From Taxawa tesnikishii (nom. ined.) (lineage: Eukaryota > Ascomycota > Dothideomycetes > Dothideales): a stretch of DNA of 64,000 nt. Made by a program: the position numbers and the translations under genes. Shown piece after piece: positions 10,650 through 55,457 of the stretch (the stretch's first letter is position 1; every line of letters starts with the position of its first letter). The stretch spans positions 1,488,001 through 1,552,000 of the forward strand of contig JAPDRO010000003.1 in the NCBI GenBank assembly GCA_030247885.1, written 5' to 3'. Under the pieces are notes generated by a model. That model was not told the origin of the DNA. It did not search any database and saw nothing but the letters and a program-made list of their open reading frames with translations.

Positions 10650-10699
10650 TGTCGGTGTCGACGCAGGCAAAAGAGCGAACGAATGAACGCGACCAGAAA

Positions 10700-10975: not shown

Positions 10976-11043
10976 ACTGCCAGCTGCTCTCACGCCTTTC
11001 ATCACGCCCTTTATCACGCCCACCGTCTACATCGAGCGCAGTG

Positions 11044-12875: not shown

Positions 12876-14735
12876 TCACGAACCCGTGGCAGCAGTCACC
12901 TGAACGGTTGCCGCAGCCTTCTCGTCTAGCACCCCATCCTCCTCAAAACTAGTTCTATCCTTTCCGTCACCCGGGGTTGCGGTGCCTAGACCTGTGCATT
13001 TGTAGCCGCGGAACTTGCGCGCGGGCAGGCGTTGCTCGAACTACGGGCCTGCGTGTCAGCAGTGCTTCGTGTTGCTGGGGTGCGGACAGGATGCGAAAGA
13101 AGGAAGGGATCGGCAAGGAAGGAAAGACAAGCGGGGAAAGAGGGCTTACCATCTCATTTATCTCTTCCAATGTCCGTCCCTTGGTTTCCGGCAGAAATAG
13201 GAAGACCCAGAGGGAGGTAACGATGCATGAGGGAAACCAAATATAGCCATACTTCGGACTGTGATGGCGTTGTCAGTGATCTTACTCTGCAAATGCATAC
13301 ACGAGTACAACGACTTACCCCCAACCAAGCGAATCCGGATTGATAAAGTATGGAGCCGTGAACGTCGCCAACCAAGCGCCCAAGAAGCCAAGGGCAGCCG
13401 CAAGTCCAAAGGTATACGACCGCAATCGCTGACTTGGTATTTCGCCACCTGCTAGCCATGCGTAGCTGGCGACCGCGCCGTTGTACGTAACCAGATACAT
13501 CGTGCTCAGACCGACAATGGCGCGGCCTGTGGCTTTCGTACGTGACTGCTTGTCGTACACAAGCGCGACGGCAAGTTGTGCGATGCCGCAGATGGCCATG
13601 CCACAGGTCAGGAATACGCGCCGTCGTCCGTAGCGCACAATGATGCAGCTGTTGAGTAAGATGACAGTGCAACCAGCAGCGGACTGGATCACGGAGTACA
13701 TGAACGGTTTGTCGGTGCCTGACATCTGGAGGAAGTAGGTTTTGTATGCTGCAGCGATGTTAACAGAGGCCTAAGCAGGAGGGCCGATGGACGTACCAAT
13801 CATGAACATGGCCCCTGACGCGGCTTGACAGCTGACAGAAGCTACGGAGAGGAAGGTTCGACGCCTGTCGACGGGATTGTTGAACAGCTGCATGATCGAG
13901 GCTCCTTTCGCGTGGCGTTGCTCGATCTCTAGTGCTGCCTGGATCTCCGCCAGCTCGGTCTCGACGGCATCAGGATTGGGTCGAAGCCAGAGAAGGGATT
14001 TGCGAGCATCCTCCGCTCTGTTCTGGAGAAGGAGCCATCTTGGTGTCTCCGGAATGAATATCATGCAAATGCTCATGAAAAATGGTAGAATGTAGATGAC
14101 GCCAAGCGGGATGAGATATGCATTTCGGCCTGCAATAGGAGCGGTTTGATTGTCAACTACGGTTCCGATCAAGGTTCCCTGCGACGCAATGGCATTAGTC
14201 TCGCTTCCTCTCAGCAGCTAGGGAGAAGGGGGTGGACCACATACAAAGCTGGTGAAGAACTGGAACCCGGATATGAACAGCCCACGGTACCTTGCAGGAC
14301 TGCATTCTTGAAGATACAGTTGGGAGTGAGTCATGAACCATCCATTGGCACATCCGATGAAGAAGCGTCCAACATAAAGAGCCCCGATATGCGTAGTAGT
14401 CATCATTATTATGTTCGACACACAGCAAGCGACTGCTGCGATCCAGAGGCAATGTCGGCGGCCCAGTTTGGTAGCGGCAAGACCAGCACAGGCGCTGGTG
14501 ATGAAGGCACCCAACGTCATAAGAGAAGAGATCAACTGCTGTCGGGTTGGATCTATGTTCCAACCGCTAGGAACGTGTGGTGCTCGATGGCCAAAGACTT
14601 GCAAGAACCCGACCATGGCTTGCAAGCCTCCGATTAGACCAAAGTCCAGGCCGTACTGGAACGGAGACATCATGATAATTGAACATGCCAAAAACACCTC
14701 CAGTTTTCGCGGATGGTCGTATTAGATTGCGACAT
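12876..14735 (-). CDS. MFS sugar transporter
   Basis: Five exons (14735-14245, 14178-13797, 13748-13319, 13258-13150, 13040-12876) give about 525 residues. The protein is a 12-helix plasma-membrane permease of the sugar porter family. Signatures seen are FQYGLDFGLIGG in helix 1, LGRRHCLW after helix 2, GRFFIGCANGW, PETPRWLL before the central loop, RYGRRRVFL after helix 8, and PETKGRTLEEI closing helix 12. The tail FEQRLPARKFRGYKC is typical of fungal members. The first 12 residues (MSQSNTTIRENW) are out of frame with the rest. One extra G at the GG near 14697-14698 gives ENWRVFLACSIIMM. An alternative is a separate upstream first exon using the CTAATAC...GAG acceptor there. The substrate (hexose, disaccharide or galacturonate) cannot be told. 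Confidence 0.9.
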
Positions 14736-15340
14736 GATGAATTGAGTACGAGACAAGACGAAAATCCCTACTTCTGGAAGACTGGGTTGTAGGAGTTGAC
14801 CACAGGTGTAGACCTCAGCATCTAAATAGGGTGGATCCCACAAAAATGCCAAACTGCACGTCAAGCACATGTCGGAGAACTTGCGGGTGCGGGGCCCCAT
14901 ACCCCATGTGCCCAGGGAGGAATCTCATGGAGCGCCCAGAGGAAGGATCACCGCCAAGGCTAAAAGACGGTATAGAGGCTTGGCTGGGACTGCGATGTTG
15001 AGAAATCGGCAAATCATGCGTGGGGCCATGGAAGAACTGCCGTGGGGAAAGATTCCCCCAGTCGACCTCTGAGTGGAGGGAGACAGTTGAACTGGCTTTG
15101 GAAACCAGGATTGAAACGGCTGCCCAACACAGGTGCCATTCTTGAGTGACCAACTCGAGTGCGAGGAAAGATTGAGGCATACGTACCAAACGCTATCAGT
15201 GTAGCGACATGAGGATCCAAAACGTCCAAGTGCCATCTCTTTCACACCTTCTGGAGTGTTGAAGCTGGCAGACGTCGTAGAGGTGAAGAAGGTAAGGATA
15301 ACCCGCAGAACTTGTCAATTGTGGGCCACGGCCATCTTGC
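14736..15340. other. Upstream region of transporter
   Basis: Spacer between the transporter and the pectate lyase relic. Overlapping minus-strand frames at 14815-15245 have no recognisable pattern. This segment may hold eroded 5' parts of the lyase on the plus strand. Confidence 0.5.
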
Positions 15341-15960
15341 TCGACAGCACGCCGCGTTCTGCCATGAGCGAGGGTCTCGAGGACTTTGATGGAACACTTG
15401 ATGAATGGGTCCGAAAGTCGAGCAGAACACTCAAGAATGTCACCGTTGGCAAGAACCAGTATGAGGGTGTTCACTCTATAGGTCCTTGCGTGATCCAGAA
15501 CGTATGGTGGGAAGATGTCTGCCAAGGGAACGGCCACCAAGCGTTGATGTTTGCTTCGACCGACTGGGCCGATTGGGCCGACTAGAGGAGTATGGGCTCT
15601 TCTCGCAGACAGAAAGTAACGAATCCAGTGTCGAGTACCGGGTTGATCTACTTCCATGTAGACGGAAATGTGGCCTGCCGATACCACTCTGCACTACGGA
15701 CTGAAAGCCGTATACACTCCCCATCCCTTGTACTTTGATCATGACTGGCCGCTTGAGAAGTTCGATGCTACCTTCAATGGCGGGCGGTATGGGTCAAGTG
15801 GCGGCAATAAATCCTCAAGTTTCAGGGGAGAGGTGGAGCACAATCATCGGGGAAGTTCGTGGTATTGCAACTCACGTTTTGCGCGCAAATTGTGGAAGGT
15901 GTGGTTTTGTCTGGAAGAGAGTGGACGGACGACTACAGAGGAGACGAGCCGGATGTGCTT
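15341..15960 (+). pseudogene. Decayed pectate lyase, polysaccharide lyase family 3
   Basis: The diagnostic core of PL3 lies at about 15421-15530: [18 protein letters not shown] followed by [12 protein letters not shown]. It matches the family pattern [35 protein letters not shown] just upstream resembles the start of the domain. Further on, VEHN and RANCGRCGF resemble the VQHN and R.CGNC stretches, but they lie in other frames and behind about 200 unrelated-looking bases. The histidine-to-serine step after EGVH removes a normally conserved cysteine. No signal peptide or full frame is present. In life it would cleave polygalacturonate outside the cell. It sits tail-to-head beside a sugar transporter. 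Confidence 0.65.
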
Positions 15961-16698
15961 TAAGATCGCTCCTGTTGCACCCGATCGAGCACTTAGACTT
16001 CATCTGTTAGACCTACATGGAGATAAGAGAAGTTCTCCATGCAGCCTCGAGGAGACGGAGGCAGACAGTTGTGGGCTCAAGCAACAACTAAGGCGGGATT
16101 GTCTGAGGCACGATGTACTTACATCCCAACCAAGCGAGGTTTTCCTAGATCTCGGAACTTCTTTTCTTCAAAGTCCTGGGTGATTGTGGGTGTTGGTTGT
16201 CAGATGAGGGCCCTCTCTGATGATCAACCAAAGCTGACACTGCCAATGGGACACTCCAGGTGTACTCTTGGGAGCGAAGACACAGAGTAGCAAGTCGTTC
16301 GAAGAAGTGTATGTAACCCTGAATATGAAACGCACCGAGTCATCGACTGACAATAATGCGCGATTAACGACGGGATCGTTGGTCTCGAAACCTTGAGCGC
16401 CTTGAAATGCTCGACAGAATGCCGAGCCACAAGACTCCACTGCTGTATCATGCACAGTCCTAACAGTGGGTGTAGGCTCCTCTGAAAAAGGAGAAAGGAA
16501 GCAGGGAAAGCCGCGCGAAGATTTGATAGAAACCACATCACTAAGCGATCTGTTTGATTGGCGCATCAAGCGAGCCAGCAACTGCCGCGGCTATGACCGA
16601 ACATCCGACCTCCATGCATCCGCCGTCTATACCTTTACCTTTACCGTCGTCTCGTTGCTGCTGCGTTTGACGTTTCCGTATCAATAACCACCGCCACA
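15961..16698. other. SDHC promoter region
   Basis: No gene seen. The last 100 bases before the SDHC start are pyrimidine-rich (a tacctttacctttacc run at about 16629), typical of fungal core promoters. Confidence 0.5.
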
Positions 16699-17374
16699 AT
16701 GCTCGCCCAGAGAATCGCTCAGCAGTCGATGCGCGGGGGTGAGTCGCCTCACTGATAACTGGAGACGAACAACCTGAAATAGCTGACCCGTACAGTCGCC
16801 CGCAGCGCCTTCACCTTGCAGGCTCCGGCCGCCATCACAGCGAGCGCTCTGGCTCAGCAGCGGAGGTATGGACCGATCCGTCTCTTCATCAGCAACAAAT
16901 GTCGCAAGTAGCCGCTGACAATGGTCCTGCAGGCTCGCCGCAACTCAGACCATATCCGATGCCGAAGCCTCGAACCAGATCCTGGCCAAGCAACGTCTGA
17001 ACCGTCCCGTTTCCCCTCACCTCTCCATCTACCGTCCCCAGATCACCTGGTACGGCTCTGCCCTTAACCGTATCACCGGTTCCATCCTCTCCGGCGGCTT
17101 CTACATCTTCGGCGCCGCATACCTTGTCGCTCCGGCCCTGGGTTGGCACCTCGAGAGTGCTTCCATGGCCGCTGCCTTTGCATCCTGGCCAGTCGCTTTG
17201 AAGGTCTTCGCCAAGATGTTCGCTGCCTTCCCATTCACATTCCACAGCTTCAACGGCATCAGGCATCTGGTGTGGGACACTGCTTCGGCCTTGAACAACA
17301 AGCAAGTCCAGGTGACGGGATGGACTGTCGTGGGACTCAGTGTCGTCAGCAGTCTGGTTCTGGCTTTCATGTAA
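16699..17374 (+). CDS. SDH3: Succinate dehydrogenase cytochrome b subunit (SDHC)
   Basis: Three exons (16699-16738, 16796-16865, 16933-17374) give 183 residues. The protein is an inner-membrane anchor of respiratory complex II that helps bind haem b and ubiquinone. After an Arg/Ser/Ala import leader comes the family signature RPVSPHLSIYRPQITW. Three membrane helices follow, and the haem-ligand region is HSFNGIRHLVWD. The Ser and the downstream region of SPHLSIYRPQ line the quinone pocket, which is the target of carboxamide fungicides; no resistance claim is made here. Two tiny 5' exons split the leader, a usual arrangement in filamentous ascomycetes. Confidence 0.95.
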
Positions 17375-17720
17375 AAAGAGCACAATTCAATTGAAGTATT
17401 CACACGATGATCATGCCTTTTGAGGGGCACGGTCTGGGTCACGGCTGTACATATTAGGAGCACGAGCACGTACAACGCAGGGTCGTTACATTCGAAGTTT
17501 TTTTATGCAGCGAGAGCTAACCAACAGTCTCAAAGTATTGCAGAAGGAGATGTTAGATGAGTGTGATTGAACCGTTCTACAGATATGCTCAAGATGTGCC
17601 AATGCCTTGAACCATTGTGCAGTTGCAGTAGGCAATACATCCAGATGGGATTTGAGTATAGTTGTATGGAGAATGGTACTATTTGTGTTTGAAGCTGGTG
17701 CAAAATGCACGTGCAGTGCT
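17375..17720. other. Convergent 3' flanks
   Basis: Space between SDHC and farnesyl-diphosphate synthase, which are transcribed toward each other. No gene is seen. It must hold both 3' ends. Confidence 0.6.
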
Positions 17721-18837
17721 TTATTTGCTCCTCTTGTAGATCTTGCGTAAGAACTCCTCAAACACCTCCTTCTTCAAGCCCTCGCTCTCGTCAACGGCAT
17801 CAATCATCTTCCTGATCTCGCCAACCTTGTCTTCCTCGTACTCATGGTACACCTGGTCCAGCTTCAGCTCGTCGAAAACAGTCTTGACCTTAGCCTCCTT
17901 ATCCTTGTCTTTCCGGCCGTAGTTCTCCTCCAGCACTGCTCTTTGCTCCTTGTCCGCCCTCTTGAGAGCCTGGTTGACCAACCAACTGCACTTGTTGTCC
18001 TGTATGTCCGTGCCAATCTTGCCTAGCACCTTGGGGTCTGCGAAGTTGTCAAGGTAGTCGTCCTGCACCTGGAAGTACTCGCCCATGGGTATCAGGATGT
18101 CGTGTGCCTGCTTCAGGTTCTTCTCCGTAGCCCGCTCGCAGAAGTGCAGCGCGAGGGCAACGGGTAGGTAGAAAGAGTAGTAGGCGGTCTTGTAAATGAC
18201 GATAAATGTATACTTCTCCAGGCTGAAATTGTTCAGATCGACGGCGTCCTCCGGAGCGGTCAACAGGTCGCAGGCCTGTCCGAGCTCGGTCTGGAAGGTT
18301 ACTTCATGGAAGAGTTCCACAAGGTCGACGTAGTTCTTCTCCTTCTTGAAGTATTTCTTGAGCAAGATGAAGATGCTGCTTTCCAGCATGAAGGCATCGT
18401 TGATGGCGATCATGCCGACATTGGGCATCAGATACCAGCATGGAGAACCGCGGCGAGTCTTGGAGGAGTCCATGATATCATCCGAAACCAAGAAGAAAGC
18501 TTGCAGGAGCTCAATCATCCATCCCAGCGTTGCAGAGCGGAAGTACTCCTCTTTGCTGAGGGAGCGATTCAGGAGAAGGGAAGTAGTGTCGACGACGGAC
18601 ATGCCGCGGTTGCACTTTCCTCCGACTGTGTTGTGGTTCAGCGACTGTGGACATGGAGGTTAGTATGCGGCTGGGCAAAGGCGCAAGAAGACGGCCTTGA
18701 TGCGCAGGGATGGTCAAGGAGTACCTGCTGATACCACTTGAGGGCCTGGTCCGGGAGATTGTACTGTCTGCAGTGCTCCGAAAGGTCCTGCACCAGCTGT
18801 GGGAAGACACTCTCAAACTCCCCAGAGTGGTGGGCAT
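17721..18837 (-). CDS. ERG20: Farnesyl-diphosphate synthase
   Basis: Two exons (18837-18725, 18644-17721) give about 345 residues, the normal family length. The enzyme condenses isopentenyl diphosphate with dimethylallyl and geranyl diphosphate for sterols, quinones, haem A and prenylation. The first Asp-rich motif is [20 protein letters not shown], with the chain-length-setting aromatic region just before it. The second is [12 protein letters not shown], and the C-terminus RKIYKRSK is typical. The first codons MPTTLG are out of frame with [13 protein letters not shown]. One more G in the GGGG of the coding strand (18820-18823) gives [14 protein letters not shown], exactly where family members start. 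I consider this a base-call problem because the gene is essential. Confidence 0.93.
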
Positions 18838-19606
18838 GGCTGCTGGCCTGGGTCCTCGTGAGTCGAAAGCGGTGCGCTTGTGGAGGGGTCGTCCGGAGGT
18901 GAAGCAGCGTAGGGGTTGTGCAATGACCGGACGGCGCACGAGAAGACGCAGGGGTCGGTGTGGAGTCTGGAAGATGGGGCGACGTGAGCGATAGCGCTCA
19001 ATGGCACGCCGAAGTCGTTCGTGGTGAAGTGGTACGAGTAGAGAAGGCGGTACGCACCAGAACCAGATAGAGCCAGAATCAGAATCATGCGATTGACTGG
19101 CTGGACCCTGCAGATTGCCGACGCAGTTGGTATCAATAGACCGCCGTATTGCGGCATCGTTACATGTAAGGGGCTACTCGAGTACGAGGATTACAGGGCT
19201 TTCCCAGTGCCCCGCGGCGGCCGTCCCTGTCCCGTCCCTGATTGACATTTACCGACACCCAAAACGCTCTGGGAAGGTACGACGGGGCTTGGCAGCAAAC
19301 GCGCGCGCTCTACATCTACTCGTGTACAGCTACACTAACTACACGTGCAACACCAACACCGACTGCGCACGTGTCATCCGGCCGCGGCTTTTCCTCTGTA
19401 GTCTCTCTCGGCGCAGATAGATACTTGCGCGTGCGGACATGATCCAAAACCGTTCTCTCTACAATCGCAATACACGAAAGCCTGCGTGCAGTAGATGGGC
19501 GGAAGAAGCACTACGACCACCAACTTCGAAACGATCCCTGGCCGGTAGGCACTGGCAGTGAGTTGCATGGTGCAACAACCACACCCTCCCGAAAACGAAC
19601 GTCAGC
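18838..19606. other. Divergent promoter, FPPS and CDC23
   Basis: Head-to-head upstream regions of two essential genes. Open frames here (for example 18813-19157 on minus) have no family pattern. No RNA gene or clear binding site is recognised. Confidence 0.5.
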
Positions 19607-21654
19607 ATGTCTGGACTGCCTCAAGAAGAGATCACGCAGCTACAGAACCACCTGCAGCAGGCTGTTGTAGCATGCAACGACCGCTGCCTGTACAACTCCG
19701 CAAAGTGGTATGTCGCCCGAGTCCTGATCAAAACCTAAACACATCTGACAGATTGTGGCGTCAAGGGCGGCAGAGTTGCTCAATTCCTTCTCCGACGCAG
19801 CCTTGGATCTCAACCCCGAGTCAGACACGGATGTAGAATCGTCCGTGGATGAGGACACCGAACCGCAGCTGCCTCCACTCAGCGGAGCGTTTTCAGATGA
19901 TCCTCGAGAAGCTCGCCTGGAGAAGCGTGAATTGCCCAGATTCCTGATGGCAAAGTCCTGCTTTGACTGCCGGGAGTATGATCGCTGCGCCGCGATTCTG
20001 CTACCGAGTCTTCTCCCCAGGAACCAATCATTCGGAGAACGCCAAACCCGGAACAGTCGAACAGCTCGCGAAAGTCGACCGGTGGTGCGAGTGTTGCAGA
20101 TTCACATAGACCGTCCCTCAGGGGCCGAAATCCACGTTCAAGCCAAAAGCACTCTTCCTCGCTCTCTACAGCAAGTACATCGCGGGTGAGAAGCGCAAGG
20201 ATGAGGACAGCGAGATGGTCCTTGGCCCTCTGGACGGACCCATCACACTGAACAAGGAACTCAACACCATCTCCGCAATCCTGAACGACTACTTTGAAGA
20301 ACGAGGCGGCATAAACGGCACACAGCCTTCGCAAGGGTTTCTTGAATACCTCTATGGAATTATCCTCATGAAGAACAAGAACGACATCCACGCAAAACAA
20401 TGGCTTCTTAGGAGCGTGAATCTGTATTGCTACAACTGGGGCGCTTGGCAAGAACTGGCAGGCCTGATCGGATCTCTCGAGGAGCTGACCCAGATCTCTC
20501 AACAACTTCCGCGGAACATTATGGCTTTCATGTTCCACATCCATTGCAGCCAGGAACTTTACCAGAACACCGAGCAGATTCACAACACCATATCACAAAT
20601 GGTCACCATCTTTCCGTATTCCGCGTTTCTGCAAACGCAACGCGCACTGCTACACTACCACGCCAAAGACTTCGATGAGGCCGACCGTCTCTTCACGCAC
20701 ATCCTGTCCTCTTATCCCTACCGCCTCGATTCTCTTGACACGTACTCCAACATTCTCTACGTCATGGACGCTCGACCTAAACTCGCCTACCTTGCCTCTG
20801 TAGCGTCCGCCACTGACAAATTCCGCCCTGAGACCTGCTGTATTGTAGGAAATTACTACTCGCTCTCTTCCGCCCATGAGAAGGCAGTCATCTACTTCCG
20901 CCGTGCTTTGGCCCTAGACCGCCACTTTCTCTCGGCATGGACACTCATGGGGCACGAATACATTGAACTCAAGAACACACAAGCTGCCATTGAAAGCTAC
21001 AGGCGTGCGATCGATGCCAACCGCAAAGACTATCGAGCTTGGTACGGTTTGGGTCAAGGTTATGAGATTATGGACATGCACTCGTATGCAATATTCTACT
21101 ACCAGCGTGCCGCGGCCCTTCAATCATGGGATCCCAAGATGTGGATGGCTGTCGCTAATGCCTTCGCTCACTGCGGCAAACTGACGAACGCAATACGTGC
21201 ATACAAGCGCGCATTACAAGCCGGCAGCTACATCGACCCTGGTGGCAGCTTCGCATCATCCTCAGCGGATCCTTTGGCAAACTCTGTTGGTGGCGCTTTG
21301 GACCCGGAGATACTTTACCAGATCGCGTTGTTGTATGAACGTGACAACAACATCCAGGAAGCCGCTGCATATATGGACCTCACCCTAGCACAAGAGGAAG
21401 GCCCAGACGAGGAAGACTTGCCGCCCGGTGCTCGGGTAAGTGGAGGCGTGGGTGTGACACAAACCACGAGCAAAGCAAGGATGTGGCTGGCCAAATGGTG
21501 TTTCCACGAGCGTCAATGGCAGCGCGCGGCCGAGCTCGCGAACGAGTTGTGTCAGGATGGTGTTGAGGTGGAGGAGGCGAAGGCCTTGATTCGAGACGTT
21601 CGCGCCAGGCTGGGTGCGGAGACGAATCTGATAGGACAAGAGCACGTTGCTTGA
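19607..21654 (+). CDS. CDC23: Anaphase-promoting complex subunit 8 (Cdc23)
   Basis: Two exons (19607-19707, 19766-21654) give about 663 residues. This TPR scaffold of the APC/C ubiquitin ligase drives mitotic exit. The intron joins SAKW to AAELLNSF. PRFLMAKSCFDCREYDRC marks the N-terminal domain. An acidic/Ser-rich linker and then ALFLALYSKYIAGEKRK lead into tandem TPRs, with classic forms such as AWTLMGHEYIELKNTQAAIE and AWYGLGQGYEIMDMHSYAI. Two single-base shortfalls break the frame: one near 19994 (GCCGCGATT, needs one more G) and one in GGGG at 20121-20124. With both, the linker reads AADSATESSPQEP and SLRGPKSTFKPKALF. Without them the frame closes, which is implausible for an essential gene. 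Confidence 0.92.
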
Positions 21655-22028
21655 TGTTGTTGGTGAAATGACCCGTTGCTGCAAGACCTATACTTACGAA
21701 GGAATGAGTGATGGCCAAGCTGAAGATGTACCAAATACAGTTCGGGAACAGCAAGGTATCCGCTAGGATTGATCCCTCCATTGATCGCAGCTATCGACCC
21801 ATGGCACCACACCAGCATGAACAGCAAAGCCACAACAGCGGTTTTCTTACCTAAGCGTCCAGAGCATTGTACGATGTTCGTGTGACGATAAGCAAACGGA
21901 ACTGTCATCCTGAGCGATGGCAAAGCTCGGACGATGGGAAGGGATCTAAACCGTAACAAAATTTACGAATACTGACTGCAAGGGTATAACAACAGCTGTT
22001 GCGCACAAATGCTTCATCCAGCACAGAC
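21655..22028. other. Convergent 3' flanks
   Basis: Space between CDC23 and the DUF1295 gene. Minus-strand frames here are read-through past the true stop of the DUF1295 gene at 22029. No gene seen. Confidence 0.6.
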
Positions 22029-22936
22029 TCAATAAACATATGGCAGAAGCTTCCATGGGGTGCGTGCCTTGTACTGCTCCCATTGCTCGCCATACTGTGG
22101 ACAGGATTAGCAAAACACTGATAGAAATAGCGAAGTTGCAAACGTACCCTGTCCTCGCAGTATTGACTGAGCACAGGGATGGCGCGATGACTGAAGTCCC
22201 AGAAGAAGAAAGCACCAATGGCGGCGCCCCAAACCCAGCCGCCAGCAGCGAGCGAGTAGCCGCACCTCCACAATGTGTAGCCGCCGTAGTTGATGTGTCT
22301 TGCCAAGCTGAACAGTCCGCCGCGGTATACCTTGCCCTTGTTGGCTGGATCTGCCTTGAAGTTCTTCCTCTGCCACTCAGAGATGCTTTCGGTGAGAATG
22401 CCGATGGTGTAGAGGCCTGCGCCAACAAGAAGAGGTATCTGCGGGAAGTGCTCGCCATTGACCGATGCAGAGGTGGCCTGGCAAACGAAGAGCAGCGAGT
22501 TCATAGAGTTGAAGGCGGTGTTGAATGCCGACACCATGAGCGCAGCAGAGGGTGGGAAGGTTTCGTGTGAGATGCCGACGAGCCAGTAGTTCTGCTTGAC
22601 TGCGCTACCTGCTGCCATGGCAAGCAAGATCAAGCGATACGGCGATAGATCCAGACGGTCGATGAAGGTGCCGGTAAGCAGTGGAGGGCCATGAGCGAGC
22701 GTCTGTCCGCCCAGCTTGCGGATCAAGGCAGACCCTACGCCTTGGGCCAGGATGGCATATTGAAAAAACGGGTCGAGGCTGCGGAGACCCAGGAAGAGTC
22801 CTTTGAACTACGACTCAGATCCGCCGTGCTTGCGTATACAAGTACTTACGGATTGCTTACCTGTGCCGAGAGGACTGGGCTCCTTGACACCCCGCCTGAT
22901 GTTGTCGTACTTGCGCGCCGTGTCGTCGTAAGGCAT
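22029..22936 (-). CDS. DUF1295 / steroid 5-alpha-reductase-like membrane protein
   Basis: Three exons (22936-22861, 22800-22148, 22094-22029) give 264 residues. Multi-pass membrane protein of the PF06966 group. The N-terminal half is hydrophobic (FFQYAILAQGVGSALIRKLGG). The C-terminal part has the group's conserved signature: ERKNFKADPANKGK-like (here WQRKNFKADPANKGK), then GLFSLARHINYGGYTLWR, and a final WEQYKARTPWKLLPYVY, which is the usual end of this fold. Related enzymes reduce or methylate lipids using a cofactor bound between the last helices. The actual substrate of this fungal branch is unknown. The last exon is only 66 bases. Confidence 0.88.
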
Positions 22937-23236
22937 GGCGGACGGCGGCTTTGTCGATGGGCGGTAGGGGTAGGGCGACTAGAGACGCACAATGGGAGAA
23001 CCTTTGTACAGCTGCTGCTACGTGCCAACTCCAAGGACTAAGCGAGTTCCTCGGCCACACAGTACGAGCGGGCAGGCCCGGCGATTGTCAGGTCAGGTAG
23101 GTACTATACCTATACCTACTGTCACTGTTAGGCGAAGTGAAGTTCCGCAGTCGTGATCAGGCCTTGGCACTAAGCATCACGTGAAGGCCACCCAGACAGC
23201 TTCCTGTTCTATCTCGGCACATTTCGGTCCTCTCCA
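22937..23236. other. Divergent promoter
   Basis: About 300 bases shared by the DUF1295 gene and the Mmc1-like gene. It contains a short tacctatacctac repeat at about 23098-23118. No gene. Confidence 0.5.
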
Positions 23237-37071: not shown

Positions 37072-38615
37072 ATGTTGTTCGAAGACTTGCGCACAATCCA
37101 CGAGGATCTGGAGAGATTGGAACAAGGTATTGCGGACCGCATACTGGAAGATCCCCGCAGCGTGAGTACCTCACGCACCTACTCTCCGAAATCTTGTTAA
37201 CCTTTACAGCTTCGGGATAGGCTCGCGCGCGACCATCAGATTGCCGGATTTCTGGATCGGATAGAGACACAATCGAAACGTGGCCTCGAACTATACGCAG
37301 ATCCGGATGGCGCGCGCTTGCGCGAAGTCCAAGCCATATCAACTGGCGACCCGTTTGACGAATTCTACAAGCAACTGGGCGGCATCAAAGACTTTCACAA
37401 GCGGTATCCGAATGAGCCTGTTGAGAACCTCGAACGCGCATACAAGCGGCGAGCGGTTGGCGAAGACGTGCCTGTTCCTTCGGAAGTCGACAACATGTTC
37501 TCCGGCGAGGAAGCTTTTGGTCGCTTCTTCGATTTGACGGCATCGCACGAAGACTTCGTCAACCTTCCCGGCACGAAAAGGCGCATCACCTACCTACAGT
37601 ACCTGGATAGCTTTGATGACTTCTCAACCATCTCCAGGAAGGACAAGATGCGGGATCAGTACTTCCAGTACGTTGGTGCTCTGGCTTCATACTTGGAGAG
37701 CTTCATGCGAAGAACGAAACCGTTGGAGGATCTGGACAAGGTCTTTGCGAGCTTCGACCGCGAATTCGATAAGGGCTGGGAGGAAGATAAGGTACAGGGG
37801 TGGGAGAAGGAGACGCAAGGCACCACGAAGAACGGACCTGTCACAGAAGGCACAGGAGAAGGAATCTGGTGCGCGGACTGTGAGAAGGAATTCATGAAAG
37901 ATACAGTCTACAAGGCGCATCTGACGGGAAAGAAGCACATCAAAAACGCAGAAGCGCGGCAAGCGCGAGGGGGACAACAAACGGAGACGCAGGCGCGAAA
38001 CCAGCCGTCAACGCTGTTCATCGCCTCAAGGAACGCGCCGTTGCTGAACGCGAATACCGCGTTCGCAAACTGGCTGCTGCCATGTCCACCGAGCGCGCCG
38101 ACACCCGCGTGAACGTGGAGCGCAGGTCTCATCTGACGGACAAGGAACGTCAGCAAGAACTCCAAGCACTTTACGCGCAATCGACCGAGCCTGCAGGGAC
38201 GGTCGAGAACGACGACGAAGACGAAGGAGACGACAAAATTTACAACCCACTCAAACTACCGCTCGCTTGGGACGGCAAGCCAATTCCTTTCTGGCTGTAC
38301 AAGCTGCATGGACTGGGCGTCGAGTTCCCCTGCGAGATCTGCGGAAACTTCGTCTACATGGGCAGGCGAGCTTTCGACAAGCACTTCAGCGAAGCAAGAC
38401 ACCTGTATGGGCTCAAGTGCCTAGGCATCACCAACTCGAGCTTATTCAGAGAGATCACTGGTATCGAAGAGGCAAAGGCTCTGTGGGACAAGATTCAGAA
38501 GGACAAGAAGAAGGAGACTGCGGCGAACGATCAGGTTGTGCAGATGGAGGACAAGGAGGGTAACGTCATGCCGGAGAAGGTGTACAACGATCTGATGAAG
38601 CAAGGTTTGCTGTAA
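37072..38615 (+). CDS. PRP9: Splicing factor SF3a subunit 3 (SF3a60/Prp9)
   Basis: Exons 37072-37161 and 37210-38615 give about 498 residues. The protein is part of the U2 snRNP SF3a complex, needed for branch-site recognition. The N-terminus MLFEDLRTIHEDLERLE and the SF3a60-binding region LREVQAISTGDPFDEFYKQL are typical. A matrin-type C2H2 finger follows: WCADCEKEFMKDTVYKAHLTGKKH. The C-terminal finger region is PFWLYKLHGLGVEFPCEICG to HFSEARHLYGLKCLGI. Between the fingers the frame is lost in a run of five Gs (37969-37973). A sixth G would continue into KPAVNAVHRLKERAVAEREY, the conserved linker. No usable GT donor exists there, so an intron does not explain the break. Confidence 0.93.
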
Positions 38616-44632: not shown

Positions 44633-47600
44633 ATGTCCCACCCGCACCCCAGAAGATCTGTGGATAGCTTCGACCCGATACTCTCTCCAACCACTAGGCC
44701 TGCCTCCGCTTACCCCTTCCCGCAGTATGACCCGTCAAACAGGCCAACAGCCGGAAGCCGCTATCAGCCGCGGCGAGGCTCCAACGCGAGCGCAATCTCG
44801 GTCAATTCAATAGGTGGCTCCCTGGACACTTCTTCGGGTGATAGCACGGTGAGAGGAGCAGGTCAGAATGGTATGGCACACTCGCGGGGATGCAGCATGT
44901 GAAGATTGTTTGTAGCTTGGGCTGATGTGATATTGTAGCAATCTCGACCCTTCTACAACCCCCAATCATCCGGACGGGTCTCCTTCCCCAGCCCTCCTCC
45001 TTGGCTTCGTCTGCTACCTTCCGGCCACCTACTACCAGAGATATCCCGCCTGTGACCCTGATAAACATCCCTCATGTGGAGCCTTCAGCCTTCCAAAATT
45101 ACCTCTCCCGGATCGGTCCATTATTCGAGACGTTTCAGAGAGTACGCGCCGAGAACCAGGCTGCCTCTTCCCAGATCTTCCAGAAAGACAAAGATGCGAA
45201 AAAGAATGACGAGCTGGCAGGCATCATAGATAGTACTGGTCCAAGAAGCCCAGCTCTTGCACGGCAGAACTCCGCCGCCAGTCTGCTTTCCCCGATCGAA
45301 TCACCACAACCAAGGCGTAGATCGAGTGGTTACGCGCGACGAAGAGCCAATGAACCCACACCCTTGTCTACCATACCCAATGTGTATTTCGAAGAAAACT
45401 TCCAGCTGGAAAACCCGCGTACGTTCGACGTGGTCAGTGAACGAGCCGAAATCGTGAGGCCTCCGCCAGGATCTGCTGAAGAGAAGAATGCAAGCAACGG
45501 CGCTGCTCTCCCGCCAAGGAAGGCACTAGCCACCAACGCAATCTTGCAGGAGAAACTATCATGGTACATGGATACTGTGGAAGTACATCTTATCAGCTCC
45601 ATTTCCTCGGCTTCTGCGAGTTTCTTCGCCGCTCTGGGATCGCTAAAGGAATTACAGTCCGAGGCCGAAGATTCTGTTGAAAAGATCAAGAAATTGAGAG
45701 CGGACTTGGCCAAACTTGACGAGGACATGGCAATAGACGGGCTTAAGGTTGCAAATATGCGGAGAAGAAGGAAAACGTACGAAAGCTCGGTCAGGCCACT
45801 CGGCAGGTGCAGCGCATTGTAGATGAAGTAAAGCGTTGCGAAGAACTAGTGGATTACGGAGAATACGATACAGCGGCGGACAAGATGCATGAAGTGGATC
45901 GACTAATAGCTGGCGAACAAGATTCTGTACCGCCCGACATCAGTCTGCAAGATGGAAAAGCACAAGAGGAAGACCAACTAATAGATTTGCGGGGACTCAA
46001 AGCTCTGCAAGGGTTGTCAGACGGAATCCGGTTGTTGCAATTCAGAATTGGCAAAGGTTATGAAGTACGCTTCCTGGAGGCTCTGTTGTCTGATCTGCGC
46101 AACCATGTCGACAGGGTTCCTGTGAGAGACACGTTGAGGAGGTGGGCAAACGCCTCGCAGCGAGCCCGTGGTGACCAGAATAGGATCCAGGTCGGACCAC
46201 CAGCTTATCTCGAGACAAACGAGCAGCTGCGGAAAGACTTGCTTGTGAGCTTGGATGGGTTGAGCAAATCTGGCCAAACCGCGCAGGCCACAGCAGCATT
46301 CCGGGAGGCGATCATGAAGGAGATGAAGTCGCTCATACGCAGACATCTGCCCAGCTCCAGCGATGACGACGCTGAGTCGGTTACTTCGGTTTCCACACGT
46401 GGAGGAAAGCAGCTTAGCCAGCAGGAAAAGTCAGCAATCCTCGCTAGAAATCTGCGAGCGCTTGATGATGATGCTGCGGAGGAGTTGCTCATAAACCTGT
46501 ATACCGGCACAAGCGAAGCTTTGCGCAGGCTCGGAGTGCAGGTCAAGGTTCTCCTGGATGTTACGAGCGGTTTCAGCAGCGGCACAACATCGCCTCCACG
46601 AAGTCCAGGTTTCCAGTCCATAGAAGGGCAACTGAAAAGTACAAACGGCCGGACCAGTCATTTGCAGGAGGAGCTGACCCAAGCGCTGGATATGTCAAGT
46701 CTCCTCGGCCAAGCAGTTGATACAGCCCAAACTCAGATCTCCCGCATACTCAAGGTTAGGACGGAGCAGAGCAACCGCTTGCCTCTGGAACGCTTCCTGC
46801 GTTATTTCACGCTCAATCGGATGTTCGCCGATGAATGTGAGGCAGTCTCTGGCCGGTCGGGCTCTGTATTGAAAAACATTGTCAACACGCAGATAAATGC
46901 GTTCGTTCATACTCTTGGAGATACGGAGAACCAGCGTGTTGCACAACAGCTCGACACCGACCAATGGGAAGCCAAGGACTTTACCGAAGAAGATCAAGCT
47001 GTGTTATCCCGTATCCTCCAAAGCATGACTTCTGATCCCGCCGTTTGGACAAAGGCGACACATGTATGGGAACCCATCTCTTCATCTAGTTCGGAACCAA
47101 AGCCGCCTGAAGCAAATGGTGCTACCAATGGTACCACTGCTCCCGCGAGCAAGCCCACCACCCGCCCAGCCTACATAGATGAAACCCGCTACATCCTCGT
47201 GGCCTCTGCAATCTCCATCCTGCGCCCCATCGACACTTTCCTTGCGCTCGTCGCCAGCATTCCCAGCATCGCACCCACTGCCGTCCAGGCCCTCGCTGAC
47301 GTTCTTCGCACTTTCAACTCCCGCTCATGCCAGCTCATCCTCGGTGCCGGTGCAACTCGCAGCGCAGGCCTGAAGAACATTACAACTAAACACCTAGCAC
47401 TAGCCTCGCAGGCCCTCAGTTTCGTCATCGCACTGATACCCTACCTGCGCGAAGGTGTGCGTCGCCATCTCGGCGGCGGCAATCAGGCGGCAGGCCAAGT
47501 GCTACAGGATTTCGACAAGGTGAAGCGGCTGTGTCAGGATCATCAAGTCGGCATCCATGACAAGCTGGTCGAGATCATGACTAGTCGAGCGAACGCTCAT

Positions 47601-48092
47601 GTCACAGCTATGAAGAAGATTAGCTTTGATGATCGCGCGGCTAGTACAAGAGAGGGAGTCAGTCCCTATATGGAGACCTTGACGAAGGAGACGGGAACAC
47701 TGTATAGAGTGCTTGGGCGGCATCTGAACGAGGGCGAGGTCATTGGGATTATGGCGGGAGTGGCAGCTGCGTACAAAGACGTCTGGGCGAAGGCATTCGC
47801 TGAGGTGGAAGTCTTTACGAAAGAGGGGAAGGACAGGTATGTTTGCGTTTGATTTTGGCGGACAAGCGCAGATGAGCTGATCACTCATTGTAGGTTGGTG
47901 CGTGATGCCGAGCTCTTCGATTCAAGACTGAGCAAGATTGACGGGTTTGGCGACATTGGTCGCTCGGTGCTGGGTACAGCCAAGGCGAAGGCGATCTCCA
48001 ATGCGGCTGCTGGGAAGGCAAAAGAACTCCAGAAGGAGGCTGACAAGGCAACTGAACCCGCACTCCAGGCAGCGGACGAGAAGAAAGGATAG
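44633..48092 (+). CDS. VPS54: GARP complex subunit Vps54
   Basis: Exons 44633-44870, 44939-47836 and 47894-48092 give about 1111 residues. GARP tethers endosome-derived vesicles at the trans-Golgi. A Ser/Pro-rich head is followed by the Vps54 N-terminal core RDIPPVTLINIPHVEP, the helical region LQEKLSWYMDTVEVHLI and SLKELQSEAEDSVEKIKKL, then long helices. The C-terminal Vps54-like domain (PF07928) runs from KTHLALASQALSFVIALIP-like residues to LTKETGTLYRVLGRHL and VWAKAFAEVEVF. At the GG of 45770-45771 the frame is lost. One more G restores ENVRKLGQATRQVQRIVDEV, the family's continuous coiled region. No intron fits that spot. Confidence 0.9.
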
Positions 48093-49750
48093 ACGATGCG
48101 CCAATGAGCTGCTCTTGTATGAGGTTTTGGTGTTGGAGCGCTGTCGTTGATGCATGAGCGACGGCGTTACGGAGGTATGTTGGTATCATGGTATTGTGAA
48201 GCCATCCATCTTGATCCCAGGATCTATGATACAACCTCATCTCGGATGCTGGGCGTTACCACCAAACGGTGAAGGCAGGTTGGATGTTTGGTGACGGGAC
48301 CACAGTGTATCTCAGACATGACTGCCACGGTGTTATACCCTGTACTCATTCAGCCACAAGAGATGGAAGTGTCTTGGAATCCCCACAAGGTTCAGGGATC
48401 TCCTTTCAGGGCGATATTTGCGGTAATGGCAGAAGCTTTGTCACAACGCCACAGTCCTTCTTCGGAGCCGGTACACAGGCCAGAATGTCCAGCTCTCACC
48501 GTCGGGTTGGCGTGACCTGAAGCGTTCGTTACGCACGTGGAGATGTTTGCGGCTGTCGAAGAAGCCTGAGTAGACGTGACCCGACAAGCCAGCGACAGGG
48601 TATAAACGTTAGGCATCGCGCCATCTGATCTCCAAGAGGGTCTTTGCGCGAGCCACGCATATCAGGACACTCTCTTGGGAGCGTTTTTGGTGGACAACAT
48701 GAATCGGTTCAAGAATCGCACAGCAACAACCGAGGATTTGATCGCCTCCGTGATAAACACTCTCTGGACAGTTTTCGACGTCAACCCAAAGTCCTTCGGA
48801 GATTACCTGAATCGGTCAGAATATCATCGAAGGTGGTATGAAGACCGACCTCCGGATAGCTGGGTTCCTAACGGCATACCCAAACGCTACTGTTCTCTGA
48901 GATGGTGGCGACCTATGCGCCGTTTACCCTTCGGGACTCCCTTGAGTGAGGCACGATGGGCAAGTTCGGCGTCCTTGAAAGAGGCCAAAGAACGGACAAC
49001 ACTCGAAGGACCAATAGACCCGTATCCCATGCCTATCATGAATACTATCGCGCTGGTACCCGATATCTTTCGTCGAGAATGGATTTTGTCCGATCCAAAC
49101 AGTAAAGAGACCGAATCAAGCTTGGTCTGCCGAGCAGAAGGAGTCAGACTCTGCTCTGACACGTGTCGCCATTGTCGTTTCTGTACGTGTGCTTGTTTCA
49201 CTGGGGCTCTCTGTACTCAACGCCACCATGCTTGATCCTAAGTCTCCATAAAGCCTTGCTGGACCACAGCATCAGCCGGTTGAATAGACTACTGCACCCT
49301 GCATCCTCAAGAAAGGACGGCTTCGAGTGATCTACGGTATCAAGCTCCGGAGTCTCCGTGGAAGCATGTGCGTTAGGCGCTGATCAGAACTTTGCATACA
49401 AGATGGCAATGTATGAACTGACTGAAACGTAGTCCTTGTACTCGCTAATCCGTTGCTTTATGTGAGGCATACAGTTCAAAGAAACTCAGTCGGGCCTCCC
49501 ATTGTCGAGGATGAGTGGCTCCGTCTGCGAGCACACCAGATCTCCGTGGCGACCACCATCGCTGTTGAATGGCTTCCCCAAACACCTTTCAAATCGACGA
49601 GCTTGGAAATATCTCAGCAAGACACGTGCCACCCGGGAGAAGCTCCTATCATGGATTGAAACGTCTTGCAACCTAACGGGTCAGAGTTGAAAACTGGGCG
49701 TCCCCGCCGTCTTGTTAGAGATAGTACAGCTTGACATCAAGCATCTCCTA
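48093..49750. other. Gene-poor stretch with one unexplained frame
   Basis: 1.65 kb downstream of VPS54. A plus-strand open frame at 48675-49235 (186 codons, starting MGAFLVDNMNRFKNRTATTE) has protein-like composition in its first 70 residues and decays into a Cys-rich end. I cannot assign it to a family, and it may be a relic. Nothing else is supported. Confidence 0.5.
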
Positions 49751-50440
49751 CTAAATCACAGCATCGACAAGGATGCGTTCAGGGTCCCTAGGATCGGCTA
49801 GAGCCAGACCCTCTGTCGGGGTCGTCATACCACCGTCTTTGCGCTTGTCGATCTCGGCTTCTTGGCCATGGATGATGTGAGAGTCTATAGAGATGGGGCT
49901 GCGCAAGTCGAACACCTTCTCGATGCCGAGCTTGGTGAGCTCGTCTTTGCCTCGGAATGTCATGCTAGACAGATCTCCGCTCCGGAAGACAAGGCCGCGA
50001 TGGACTTTTCTGTTTGTGCCTGCGGTGTATCCTCCTAGGTCGCGGAACATGCGAACGCCATCGACAAGCACAAAAGGTGGGGTAGGATAGATTGGAGTAT
50101 TGTTCATATTGCCCGACATGCTTGTTCCAGTGTTCCCTGGTTCTTTTCTGTAGATGATGATGGGCGGACGCTCTGTGGTGTCTATGGTGGCGAACTTGTT
50201 GTCCCACGGTAAGAACATTTTCCCCTGATGTCGACGCTACGACTGTTTCCCCGTTCCAGCGCGCGTAGCACCGCCAGACCCATGGTTCCCAGCTCGCGTA
50301 GAGGCTTATGCGCGTTTTGGCGCGTTCCGACATCGACTTCGGCTAAACCTTTGAGCCCTACAAGCTTGTAAGAATCGATCAGGGTTTCAATCTCAATGCC
50401 GTATCCGACAGGAAAGGAGAGCTGCTCAAGCAACTCTCAA
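49751..50440 (-). pseudogene. Relic: glucosyl-3-phosphoglycerate synthase tail joined to tyrosine-phosphatase-like head
   Basis: From 50440 the minus strand reads ELLEQLSFPVGYGIEIETL, VDVGTRQNAHKPLREL and MGLAVLRALERG. These are hallmarks of the C-terminal part of GpgS-type family 81/2 glycosyltransferases. TIDTTERPPIIIYRKE matches the GpgS end. The frame then continues without a stop into VLVDGVRMFRDLGGY, HRGLVFRSGDLSSMT and KLGIEKVFDLRSPISID, the N-terminal half of a Y_phosphatase3-type phosphatase. It stops at ILVDAVI, before the catalytic HC-x5-R loop. The glycosyltransferase lacks its catalytic N-terminal two thirds; a stop lies right upstream of ELLEQL. One G short in GGGG (50222-50225) separates the two readings of the GpgS tail. 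Both enzymes are therefore incomplete. Confidence 0.7.
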
Positions 50441-50786
50441 CGTGCGGGGCTTGAGTCGTAGCAGCTGTGCTATGGTGTTGCTGCCTTGATGCCTGTCTTT
50501 GTGAGCTTCTTTCCATTCACCAGTGTTCACATGCCAATCGCATCAGCGCTAGCTCAAACTGACGTTTCGGAGATTTGGGGCACGCAAAGCAGTCCTTATA
50601 AGTTTTCGCAGTGGGGTGAAGCATAAGTTCATCTGGCTTTGACAGGTGCCAACGCTATCTGAGGAATCTAGGGGTTTGGGCGGTCTCGCTTCCGCTGGCA
50701 GGTGCTCTCCATCGTGCCTAGCACCGTTCAGCAGACCACCGATGCTGTGACAACAGAAATTGCATTCACGTGTGTGTTGCTCCCAA
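50441..50786. other. Intergenic
   Basis: Between the relic and the acyl-CoA dehydrogenase stop. No gene seen. Missing upstream parts of the glycosyltransferase are not recognisable here. Confidence 0.55.
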
Positions 50787-52287
50787 TCACGCTTCATCCG
50801 TGCTTCGGCGCACCCCGTTCGTCGCACCATCGATGGAAGGTACATCACCAGGCGTCGAGGGTCCGTAAGTAGCAGCCCAAGGCTGATACCCGTCTTGCAG
50901 GAATACCTTCTCGATCTGACGACGCCGTATGCCTACGTTGCCACCATCAAACAGCGGCAAACATACAGCGTCGTTCAGCAGCCGTGCGAATGGCTGGTCT
51001 TTTGCATACGAGGTCCTGACAGGGTCAGCCAACGACGCTTTGCCCAGTACTCTGCATGGAGATGAATAGGGGAGAACCGGAACCTACATTCCCACCGCCT
51101 TCATAGCATCCACACAACTCTTGACTGCGTTCTCCGAAGCAAAGATCTTGGCCTCAAGGGCCAACTCGAGCCGGGAAGAACAATCGCCCGGTCCGTTTTC
51201 GAGACAATGCAGCGCCTTCCAAGTCAGGAGGCGTGAGGTCTCAATGCGCATCTTGATGTCAATCAGCAGGTCGGCAACACTCTGCCTCTCAAGTATCGGC
51301 ACCGAACCGCCTCTGTTGTCAGTCTTGGCAAATTTCATGGCCGCTTCGAAAGCACTGCGCATGATGCTGACTGCCATGGCACCCACAATGGCAGCAGATG
51401 CGGCAAACGTTTGTTGGATCAGTTGAGCTCCAGCATCCGGTGCAGCTAGAACGTTCTCTGCTGGAACACGCAAGTTGGTGAAGCGGCTGTGCGGCCCCGA
51501 AGCTGCAGTGTGCCCAGCAAGTTCCGGGTCAGCCAGAACACGGTAGGCATCAGGCGGATTAGCAGCGAGAACCTCGGTGGTCACCATGAGCACCACAATA
51601 GAGTCCGCAGGATTGGTCGAAGGGTCCTGTGGGCTGCCATCGGGAGAGACACGGCAAGCGACACACTGCAGATTGGCGCCTTTGCCGTCCCAGCCGCCGC
51701 TGTTCGTCGTCCACAGCTTTTGGGATGAGTCAGCAACTCTGTACAAGTGCGTCACTGGGGATAGTAAGCGTGGTAGAGGGGTCAACCTTCTCGCCGTCGA
51801 TGATCCAGCTGTTACCCTCCTGTCTGGCCGTCGTTTGAAGACCCTTCCCTCCCTTCTCCAACCAATTGGCTGTTCCTTGAGGCTCCGAATGGACCAGGCT
51901 TGCCAACGGTTCGCCCTCGCCGGATAGGAATGGCTTCAGGAAGCGCTCATGCTGCTCTTTGGTGCCGCCTAGGATCAACGGTGTAAGACCCAGTCCGGTG
52001 CCCAAGATGGTCAGCGCAGCACTAGGGTCGACGTGGTAGATCTCTTCGACAAGGACAGCGGCATCGATCAGTGGACCAGCCAAGCCCCCAAGAGCCACTG
52101 GTATTTGACCCTTGATTAACCCTGCTTTGGTCGCTTGACTGTAGAGGGGTCGCAGAGAATTGAACCGTTTCGCTTGAGTGGGATACTGTTCGTACGTTGC
52201 TCGGGCGCCTGCAAGAACAGATGTTGCGAACATGTTCGCTGCATGGCGCAGCTGTTGTTGCTGTTCAGTGAGGGTAAAGTCAAGCAT
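50787..52287 (-). CDS. Acyl-CoA dehydrogenase family flavoprotein
   Basis: Three exons (52287-51787, 51716-51088, 51015-50787) join in phase to 452 residues. Fold: N-terminal helical domain (MLDFTLTEQQQQLRHAANMF), then the middle beta domain with LTILGTGLGLTPLILGG, ASLVHSEPQGTANWL and WIIDGEKLWTTNSGGWDGKG, where flavin and substrate bind. The C-terminal helical domain follows, with ERQSVADLLIDIKMRIETSRLL and GNVGIRRRQIEKVFLQDGYQPW. The acceptor AAAAG/CTG was chosen because it restores EKLWTTNSGG. Fungal members of this branch are not typical beta-oxidation enzymes; some act on nicotinate or small cyclic acyl groups. The usual catalytic Glu is not evident, so the substrate is open. Confidence 0.87.
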
Positions 52288-52954
52288 CGTTGTAGGTTTG
52301 GTTCAGATGATAAGGAAAGGTGGACAAGAGTACAACAGATTAAGTGAAAGGCAACGGAGCCACGCTCGTTGATGTATTCGAAGGATAGTGTGCCCTAGGT
52401 TCCTTCGATGGATGGCCTGATGACTTGGTAGCACGGCTCGACGCGTCTTCGTGAAGACAATCCCGAGTCTCTCGCGCACAAGCCGCAGAAGGCCAGCATT
52501 GTGGCAGGGAGATGTCGTGTAGGCATGAGCTGCAGTGTACCACGAGTAAACCCCTTGGCGAACGAGAGGAGAGTTGGCTCAGAGGACAATGGAGAAGGGC
52601 GAGAGGCGAGAGGCGAGAGGCGAGAGGCACGATGAAATGGGACAAGGGATTCGAGGGAAACGCGGTGATCAAGCCAAGCTTCGGGGTCGTGCCGATCTTT
52701 TGCGGGGACCATTGCCATCCCACATCCATCTTACTCCGTCCCCCTAAGCTATAAACAATTGTTGTATGATCGAGGGTATAACTACAGCGAGGAAGCAAAA
52801 GCAGGGCACTGTGTTTCCGTGCAGACGGTTGTTTCCGTTAGCGAAGATGACTCGACAATCTAGGCTCTCCACGCACTATGGCTCGATCCGATGGACTCCG
52901 CACATTAAGCTGGTATAGACACTTGTGCCGTGACCAATCGCAAATGCTCCTGCA
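52288..52954. other. Intergenic between acyl-CoA dehydrogenase promoter and alcohol oxidase 3' end
   Basis: Contains a short perfect GAGAGGC tandem repeat at about 52602-52630. The minus-strand frames here are low-complexity reflections of it. Confidence 0.55.
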
Positions 52955-55457
52955 CTACAGCTTTGCTCGTTCTTGCGCGATAGTCTCAGAAGTCAGGTCC
53001 TTCGCCAGCATTTTAGCCAATCCGTAAGCGATCCCCATTCCAGTAATCATTGGATTGACGCCGCTCGCCGAAGGGAAGACGCTCGTATCCATAATGTACA
53101 AGTCCTTCGTGCCCCAGACCTGGCCTGACGGACTCACAGCGCTCGTTCTTGGACTCGCACCCATGCGTGCAGTGCCCATCTGATGCGCCGAAGCGAACGA
53201 GGTGAAGGCGGGCAGCGTAGGCGTCGTCTTCCGCCGGAGTGTCTCGATCCAATCCTGCAGTCCTTTGTTATTGACGCCCTCGTCTGACCTTTCTGTCTGA
53301 CCTTTCCGCTCAAATCTCTCTATTCCCTGGATTGGCACAAAAAGTTCTCTTGCGCCTTCAACATGCATGATTTTTGCCAGAGTCTCGATCCCCTGCGCTA
53401 TCCTTCTCTGGTCCCTCTTATCAACTTTATATGCCACTCTGATCTTTCCTTCTTTGTCACCGTAGACCCTGCCCTCGCCTTCATCTCTCGCAAGACTGAT
53501 GTATCCTGTCATCCGGCCCATCTTGGCGCAGAAAGCCTTCCATTCTAGCCCGCCTCTCCAGCCGCCAGGCAAAGCGCCAAATATGGGCAGGAAGAGCCCC
53601 GGTATCATGGTCGTAGCCTCCAGTTTCACACCATGCCCACGTTGGTCCAGATTCTCAAGATCGTTGACCACGGCTGTAAGAATGGCACCTTCCCAAGGCC
53701 TGACCTGCTCGTCAAAGGCAGCGGCAAGCCAGCTGACAGGGTGCAGGCGGAGGTGACGACCGATGTGCGGGTTCTGGAGGTGGCTACGTTGCAGGATGCG
53801 AGGTGTGGATAGCGCACCAGCGGCTATTATGACGGTTTTCCGGGCCTTGATGGTGAGAGGGCGGGTATAGCAATCAGTACCAGATAAACCAGATGAGGAA
53901 TCTCGCGAGGTCCAGAACCCAGTAACTCCGATTGCCACGGGATTGCCGCCATTTGACGACTCAGAAGAAAAGAGGATCCGCGTACAGTTGAACCCTTCGA
54001 TAAACTTTGCACCCGCGTTCGCAGCATCGGGGAGGAACGTCTCCGTCGGTCCCTTCTTACCGCAGCTCCCGCATCCAAGGGTGCAGTAGCCGCAATTGTG
54101 CGCCTTGCCGCCTGTGTTTTGCGGTACTGTTTTGGCGTTCATGCCCAGCTTCCGCGCACCCTCAAGGAGCTTCGAGTTTGAGAAGTTGTGTACGACAGAC
54201 GCAGTCCCTACTCCCATGCGCTCACAGACCGCATCCATGTCCGCTTGAAACTTTGCGCTAGTGAAGTAGGGAAGGTTGTGCGGCGACTGCGCCCATTGGG
54301 AGCGTACAAAGCCCTGCAACTGCAACGACGCGCTCCAGTTTACAGTTCCGCCACCGCCCCAGCAGGAGCCGGAGAGTATGGTCATGCTCCCGTCTTCGGA
54401 TCGGATGAGGCCCCGTTGGTGAAGAGGTGCGCAGCAGCGGATGCTTCATCCATGGGCAGGTGTTGAGGTGGCCAGTAGTATGATTTGTCGGCCACTATAA
54501 CGTCAAGGCCAGCGTTCGACAGGACGGATGCAGCGACGGCACCGCAACAACCGCTTCCCACAACAACCACATCGGTCTCAACAACTTCCGGTTCCCCTAT
54601 GGGGGCTTCTGAGGAGCGAGGAGGAAACTGCAAAAATGCAAAGGGAAATCCTTCCCCGAAAGTGTGGTTGATAGGCGTACGAGGATAGCTGAGAAGTCGG
54701 CCTAGGGATGGTGAAGCCCGGGCCCAATAGACTATCGACATGCCCGCAAGGTCACGGAAGAGTTGACGAAATAGGGAAGGCGTGCTGTGGACCAAGAGAG
54801 AAGCACCTTCTCCCGAGTTGGTACATCGAGATCATACAATGGCGTAGAACGACCAGTCAGCAGCAAAGCGGCTCGTGAGCTATGACCAGATATCAGTCTT
54901 CCTTGCTTTAAAAGCAGAACCAGTGCGGCGTGGTCAAATTCTGCAGCCCCATGGTACGTCATGAGAAGGCATTGGTCAGATACTGCGGTACAGCGTTCTG
55001 GTTTTATGCAGGCTTTTGGACGATACCCAACTCGATCTCGACGTTTTTTCCAAGGAACAACACGAAAGGAACGTATCTTACTTGAGAGCGTTGAGTATGA
55101 ACAACAAGCCTCTTTTTTGATCGTTGCTGAGTTGAAAGGCCAAAAGCCTCTGCATTGACTCCTTGAAAGCAGCAGTGGCGGTGGGGTCTCATCCAAATAC
55201 TCGGCTACAAGCGCCTCGTCGTTTACAGCATTGCCCGTACTGTCTCTGATGGTCCCCATGGCTGATTCGTAGGAAGTCGGTGAGAGCGCATGGGAGAGCG
55301 GTGACAGCGCCCTGTTGATAGGCGCGATGGACGGAACAAAGGTCTCGGCAATAGCAGCGAGAAGCCTCCATTGGCCTTCCGTTAGCACATCTGCGTCCGG
55401 TACAGGAGGCAGAGGACTGGGGGTCTGGTGAATCTCTTGTTCGCGCGGAGACAACAT
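52955..55457 (-). CDS. FAO1: Long-chain fatty alcohol oxidase (GMC flavoprotein)
   Basis: Two exons (55457-55082, 54879-52955) separated by a 202-base intron; about 767 residues once the frame is whole. The enzyme oxidises fatty alcohols to aldehydes in the omega-oxidation pathway, usually in peroxisomal or ER membranes. FAD site VVVVGSGCCGAVAASVLSNAG, flavin loop GSCWGGGGTVNWSASL, Cys-rich CGYCTLGCGSCGKKG, and the C-terminal GMC end SAHQMGTARMG...DTSVFPSASGVNPM all match the family. Three single-base shortfalls split the coding strand: CCCC at 55183-55186, CCC at 54774-54776 and GGGG at 54411-54414. Each is cured by one more C or G, giving ETPTATAAFKES, RLPLFRQLFRDL and NGGLIRSEDGSM. Confidence 0.92.

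Follow-up and report, generated by a model that had tools for sequence, protein, structure and literature searches.

In programmed -1 frameshifting, ribosomes slip back one base at a slip heptamer of the form XXXYYYZ, and insertional RNA editing occurs in Physarum mitochondria. Sequencing can likewise leave a gene out of frame: PMC8486125 describes nanopore base calling as tending to underestimate homopolymer length, with mostly deletions and with C/G runs read worse than A/T runs; in the bacterial test reported in PMC6591954, only errors at Dcm sites were more frequent in the consensus than run-length errors; and for a fungus assembled from nanopore reads only, PMC7500977 reports most of 305 conserved genes as broken when unpolished and about one-fifth after long-read polishing, the broken genes being mended by short reads; polishing there introduced insertions more often than deletions, unlike the shifts described below. 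Here, we compare with these systems the frame breaks in conserved genes of a 64,000-nucleotide stretch (the window; G000:C23:1488001-1552000) of the Taxawa tesnikishii genome assembly, which has 29,367,862 bases in 34 contigs, the small number of long contigs suggesting long reads as the data source.

We consider it very likely that the breaks are errors of the assembled sequence, in which some homopolymer runs stand one base short, and not new biology; the affected genes are most likely intact in reality. As in nanopore-type long-read assemblies that lack accurate short-read polishing, single-base shortfalls at homopolymers break conserved genes genome-wide. The preliminary description of the window had held that conserved genes are broken by a one-base shortfall that is always one of G/C and never of A/T, and that the assembly probably under-calls G/C runs. 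Its observation is partly confirmed and its interpretation partly supported: under-calling of runs fits best, but the restriction to G/C is unsupported, though long G/C runs are selectively scarce. The corrected description is one of homopolymer runs called one base short, with long G/C runs especially scarce. We rate the interpretation as partly supported because a check with a coding model spoke against a strict G/C link and weakened a two-step reading of the break in Cdc23.

Conserved genes of the window change frame

Nine main sites were inspected in all frames, and the pieces were compared with Pfam and with solved structures. The gene content of the window is fungal, with Cdc23, Prp9, Vps54, farnesyl diphosphate synthase (FPPS) and others recognized by Pfam and solved-structure matches; a scan of the window for Rfam families and tRNA genes found none. 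At seven of the nine sites (in an MFS transporter, FPPS, Prp9 and Vps54, and three in an alcohol oxidase) the downstream frame fits one missing base, in agreement with the preliminary description, but Cdc23 shows a net two-frame change only. Judged by their matches, the joins in the window that stand firm are those of Prp9, the alcohol oxidase at 54411 and Cdc23:

37201-38612, plus strand: Prp9/SF3A3 gene, broken within a run of five G at about 37969-37973
52958-55466, minus strand: GMC/long-chain alcohol oxidase gene, with reported breaks at 54411, 54774 and 55183
19562-21651, plus strand: Cdc23/APC8 gene in three frames, which shifts by a net two frames somewhere from 20013 to 20140
19708-19765, plus strand: first intron of Cdc23, ordinary, flanked by profile positions 24 and 25

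Both Prp9 frames matched adjoining parts of yeast Prp9, the first to residue 311 and the second from residue 308, and the two halves likewise matched human SF3A3 in the solved-structure comparison. An intron scan (GT-AG, at least 38 nt), which covered Prp9 and Vps54, found no such intron that fits inside 37930-38079 at the Prp9 break (150 nt scanned). In the oxidase, the frame at 54385-54831 holds the FAD-binding motif of a Rossmann fold and the successive frame at 52958-54445 holds GMC_oxred_N and GMC_oxred_C, the GMC profile being entered at position 9 in the frame downstream of the 54411 break. The N-terminal oxidase joins at 54774 and 55183 were judged by eye, and the piece at 54735-55466 gave no match in the Pfam search.

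In Cdc23, positions 1-24, 25-100 and 101-267 of the ANAPC8 profile are spread over the pieces 19562-19735, 19749-20186 and 20110-21651, respectively. The first change of frame is due to the ordinary intron; an extra break suspected there was rejected, as the boundaries 19708-19765 yield, by eye, the expected protein unchanged. The second change amounts to net two frames across a linker between profile positions 100 and 101, and would be accounted for either by two single losses or by one extra base. Scored with the coding model described below, the middle frame of the linker reached -1.5 vs. -3.8 and -3.1 for the other two. Two separate sites in the linker are plausible under this model, and rated no higher because the middle frame is just slightly favoured.

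The other genes concerned, including one that adjoins a site described only as possible, are:

44926-47849, plus strand: Vps54 gene, with a break at about 45770 where the coding model also calls a shift
14221-14924, minus strand: start of an MFS sugar-transporter gene, with a reported break at 14697-14698
18641-18997, minus strand: N-terminal exon of FPPS, with a reported break at 18820-18823
49754-50236, minus strand: Y_phosphatase3 gene, adjoining the possible site 50222-50225

The first frame of the Vps54 gene matched Vps54_N at E 0.0076 and the second matched Vps54 at E 5.6e-50, and the intron scan showed that six non-consensus introns would fit; with a weak first-frame match and non-consensus introns possible, support for this join is moderate. 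The downstream frame of the transporter (14221-14721) matches Sugar_tr starting at profile position 2, and the upstream start region was judged by eye. The FPPS start was also joined by eye: a Pfam search with the N-terminal exon gave no match, and its best PDB match was an FPPS at E 0.095 (weak).

Two further sites had been proposed as possible breaks. That at 50222-50225 is unsupported, since the Y_phosphatase3 domain occupies residues 58-118 of a single open frame and is reached without any join. The coding model called a shift near 50222 at penalties of -10 and laxer, and an in-frame GGGAAAA, a canonical -1 slip heptamer, lies upstream of this gene (window 50180-50299, minus strand). At about 1355, where no homology search was made, reading by eye showed no conserved anchor.

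Frame breaks elsewhere in the genome

The breaks are not local to the window but spread over the genome and hit unrelated genes: those for CCT-epsilon, Hsp70 and a GH3 enzyme outside it carry the same one-base shortfall. In CCT-epsilon (contig C1, about 528262) and Hsp70 (contig C3, about 494624), successive matches to the chaperonin and Hsp70 profiles, respectively, overlap by 4 nt and the profile positions are continuous; the CCT-epsilon break lies inside a glycine-rich stretch, next to a G run of four. The GH3 enzyme (locus L037) has its C-terminal domain and its Fn3-like domain in successive frames. A transporter at the same locus (near 1670) was joined by eye, its upstream piece being without a Pfam match. 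Together with the nine main window sites these four make up the 13 kept sites, of which eight have matches on either side (both Cdc23 sites, Prp9, oxidase 54411, Vps54 weakly, CCT-epsilon, Hsp70 and GH3) and five were joined by eye (MFS, FPPS, oxidase 54774 and 55183, and the L037 transporter). On contig C1 (283232-284205), moreover, a match to a class II tRNA synthetase falls into two frames only 17 nt apart, which leaves too little space for an ordinary intron. Seven nuclear loci were also scanned against Rfam and gave no match.

It is very improbable, in our judgement, that some or all of the breaks are misread introns or alternative starts. Two suspects did turn out to be introns, namely intron 1 of Cdc23 and an extra-base call of the coding model at 51737 in the window, the latter being better read, by eye, as an intron between two matched acyl-CoA dehydrogenase halves (its donor is non-consensus); six non-consensus introns fit Vps54, and the FPPS and MFS breaks sit at gene starts. 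However, no intron fits Prp9 in the stretch scanned, and the 4-nt overlap and continuous profile positions in CCT-epsilon and Hsp70 leave no room for one.

Decay typically shows frameshifts, and the genes might instead be true pseudogenes, a view to which we can give very little credence: the genes affected are unrelated core genes of single-copy type, FPPS, Cdc23 and Prp9 are essential in other fungi, and apart from the shift the frames run uninterrupted for hundreds of codons (514 in Cdc23, 701 in Vps54 and 496 in the oxidase). Elsewhere, a polyprenyl synthetase match on contig C24 (236726-237289; L005) contains ten stop codons and may be a decayed copy or a copy that has introns.

Direction and homopolymer context of the shifts

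When Cdc23 is left aside, all of the kept sites (11/11) are one base short (sign test, 0.001); with Cdc23 entered as a single event in the other direction, 11 of 12 agree (sign test, 0.006). A coding model trained on this genome was run over 57 nuclear pieces (274,291 bases) with the penalty for a shift set to -10, and called 12 missing-base and three extra-base shifts. The model recovered 97/148 deletions and 69/146 insertions planted as spike-ins; corrected for this recall, the imbalance by itself is weak (p 0.07). For the first 208 kb, missing-base vs. extra-base calls were 0:0 at a penalty of -14, 7:1 at -12, 10:2 at -10, 12:5 at -8 and 15:9 at -7. Of the three extra-base calls, one is that at 51737, one (L033) is in poly-A sequence and one is in L044. 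The 12 missing-base calls include that at 50222 as well as three in L036 and those in L041, L002 and L044, which lack matches on both flanks; none of these is among the 13 kept sites.

Ten of the 13 kept sites have a homopolymer of at least four bases at a distance of 8 nt or less, compared with 11.1% of 20,000 random coding positions, and seven have such a run of G/C (6.1% of the random positions). The kept positions had been placed by the preliminary description or by us, frequently on a run, which biases the count towards runs; MFS and Vps54 adjoin A/T runs of five and four, respectively. Of the 12 positions placed by the coding model only, six have a run of four or more at this distance (11.8% expected; p 0.001); G/C runs adjoin three (6.0% expected) and A/T runs four (5.9%), and with the limit widened to 25 nt the numbers are three for G/C and eight for A/T. 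This confirms the link to homopolymers, but not a strict link to G/C.

Run lengths in nuclear and organellar DNA

In the nuclear sample, G/C runs of at least six bases numbered 8, with 31.5 predicted by a third-order model (second-order, 39.3; first-order, 79.7), and A/T runs of this length numbered 62, with 68.5 predicted (64.7 and 74.8, respectively). Most of these runs were in the 169,339 bases not called coding, where there were 7 of G/C and 56 of A/T. In 49 kb of E. coli, 7 such G/C runs compare with 5.2 under the third-order and 13.6 under the first-order model, and PMC8486125 describes real genomes, too, as poorer in G/C runs longer than three bases, so that the scarcity supports an artefact but is no proof of one.

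Contig C26, on which nad5 and cob of a fungal mitochondrion are recognizable, has a tRNA-Met of 73 nt; that on contig C28 has 72 nt and is short of a base in the T loop. These contigs also differ in 24 substitution columns of 5,975, and the two forms may be real variants. Over positions 7001-13000 (L068 and L069) the contigs agree in 13 tRNA genes and their order, and each has an SSU rRNA match over the full length; their differences are clustered substitutions and five indels, and they could represent two mitochondrial types or a duplicate made by the assembly. Contig C25 (80,121 bases; L070-L074; AT-rich, with about 28% GC) consists of nested inverted copies whose tRNA genes are mirrored, has a weak NUMOD1 match below the cut-off, and looks like a palindromic organellar molecule. 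Two inverted copies in it differ by 9 events in 1,679 columns, all of them single run-length bases (8 A/T and 1 G/C) and none a substitution; other pairs of copies gave 8 events in 2,992 columns (4 run-length and 4 substitutions), 10 in 1,688 (7 indels and 3 substitution columns) and 13 in 6,002 (4 indels and 9 substitution columns). Differences between organellar repeat copies are mainly in A/T run length.

Dispersed 5S rRNA genes gave 47 matches over the genome (for example, L006-L035), of which 44 span 120 nt and one each 119, 122 and 99 nt, a result that speaks neither for nor against the error rate; 30 of them, all of 120 nt, comprised 24 distinct sequences as read on either strand.

Slippage and RNA editing as alternatives

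Ribosomal -1 slippage would mend shifts in the prevailing direction and entails the same change of frame at most sites, but we hold it to be extremely unlikely. Among 14 sites scanned, a canonical heptamer was present only at the unsupported 50222; the 13 kept sites have none within about 24 nt, and one of them (L037 near 1670) has other XXXYYYZ heptamers. The genes concerned are unrelated housekeeping genes, and slippage would explain neither the scarcity of long G/C runs outside coding calls nor the shortened tRNA. Insertion of single bases into the RNA, which we also hold to be extremely unlikely, would account for shortfalls in coding genes and in a tRNA alike; such editing is not known to occur in fungal nuclear genes, and it leaves unexplained the position of the shifts at homopolymers and the run-length differences between repeat copies, which point to sequencing. 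Were the short runs real, with single missing bases in many core genes corrected in the RNA or at the ribosome, this would be a major new form of gene expression, a reading to which we give a very small probability.

Consequences for use of the assembly

The prevailing direction, the homopolymer context, the genome-wide spread, the scarcity of long G/C runs and the shortened tRNA are shown by these data; the sequencing platform was probably of the nanopore type, and raw reads would be expected to show the longer runs. From 12 calls in 104,952 bases called coding and a recall of about 66%, we infer about one break in every 6 kb of coding DNA; matches to Sugar_tr, tRNA-synt_2 and Aldedh (the best 9, 12 and 14, respectively) do not enter this rate. 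Until the assembly is polished with accurate reads, gene models, start positions and counts of pseudogenes derived from it would be unreliable.

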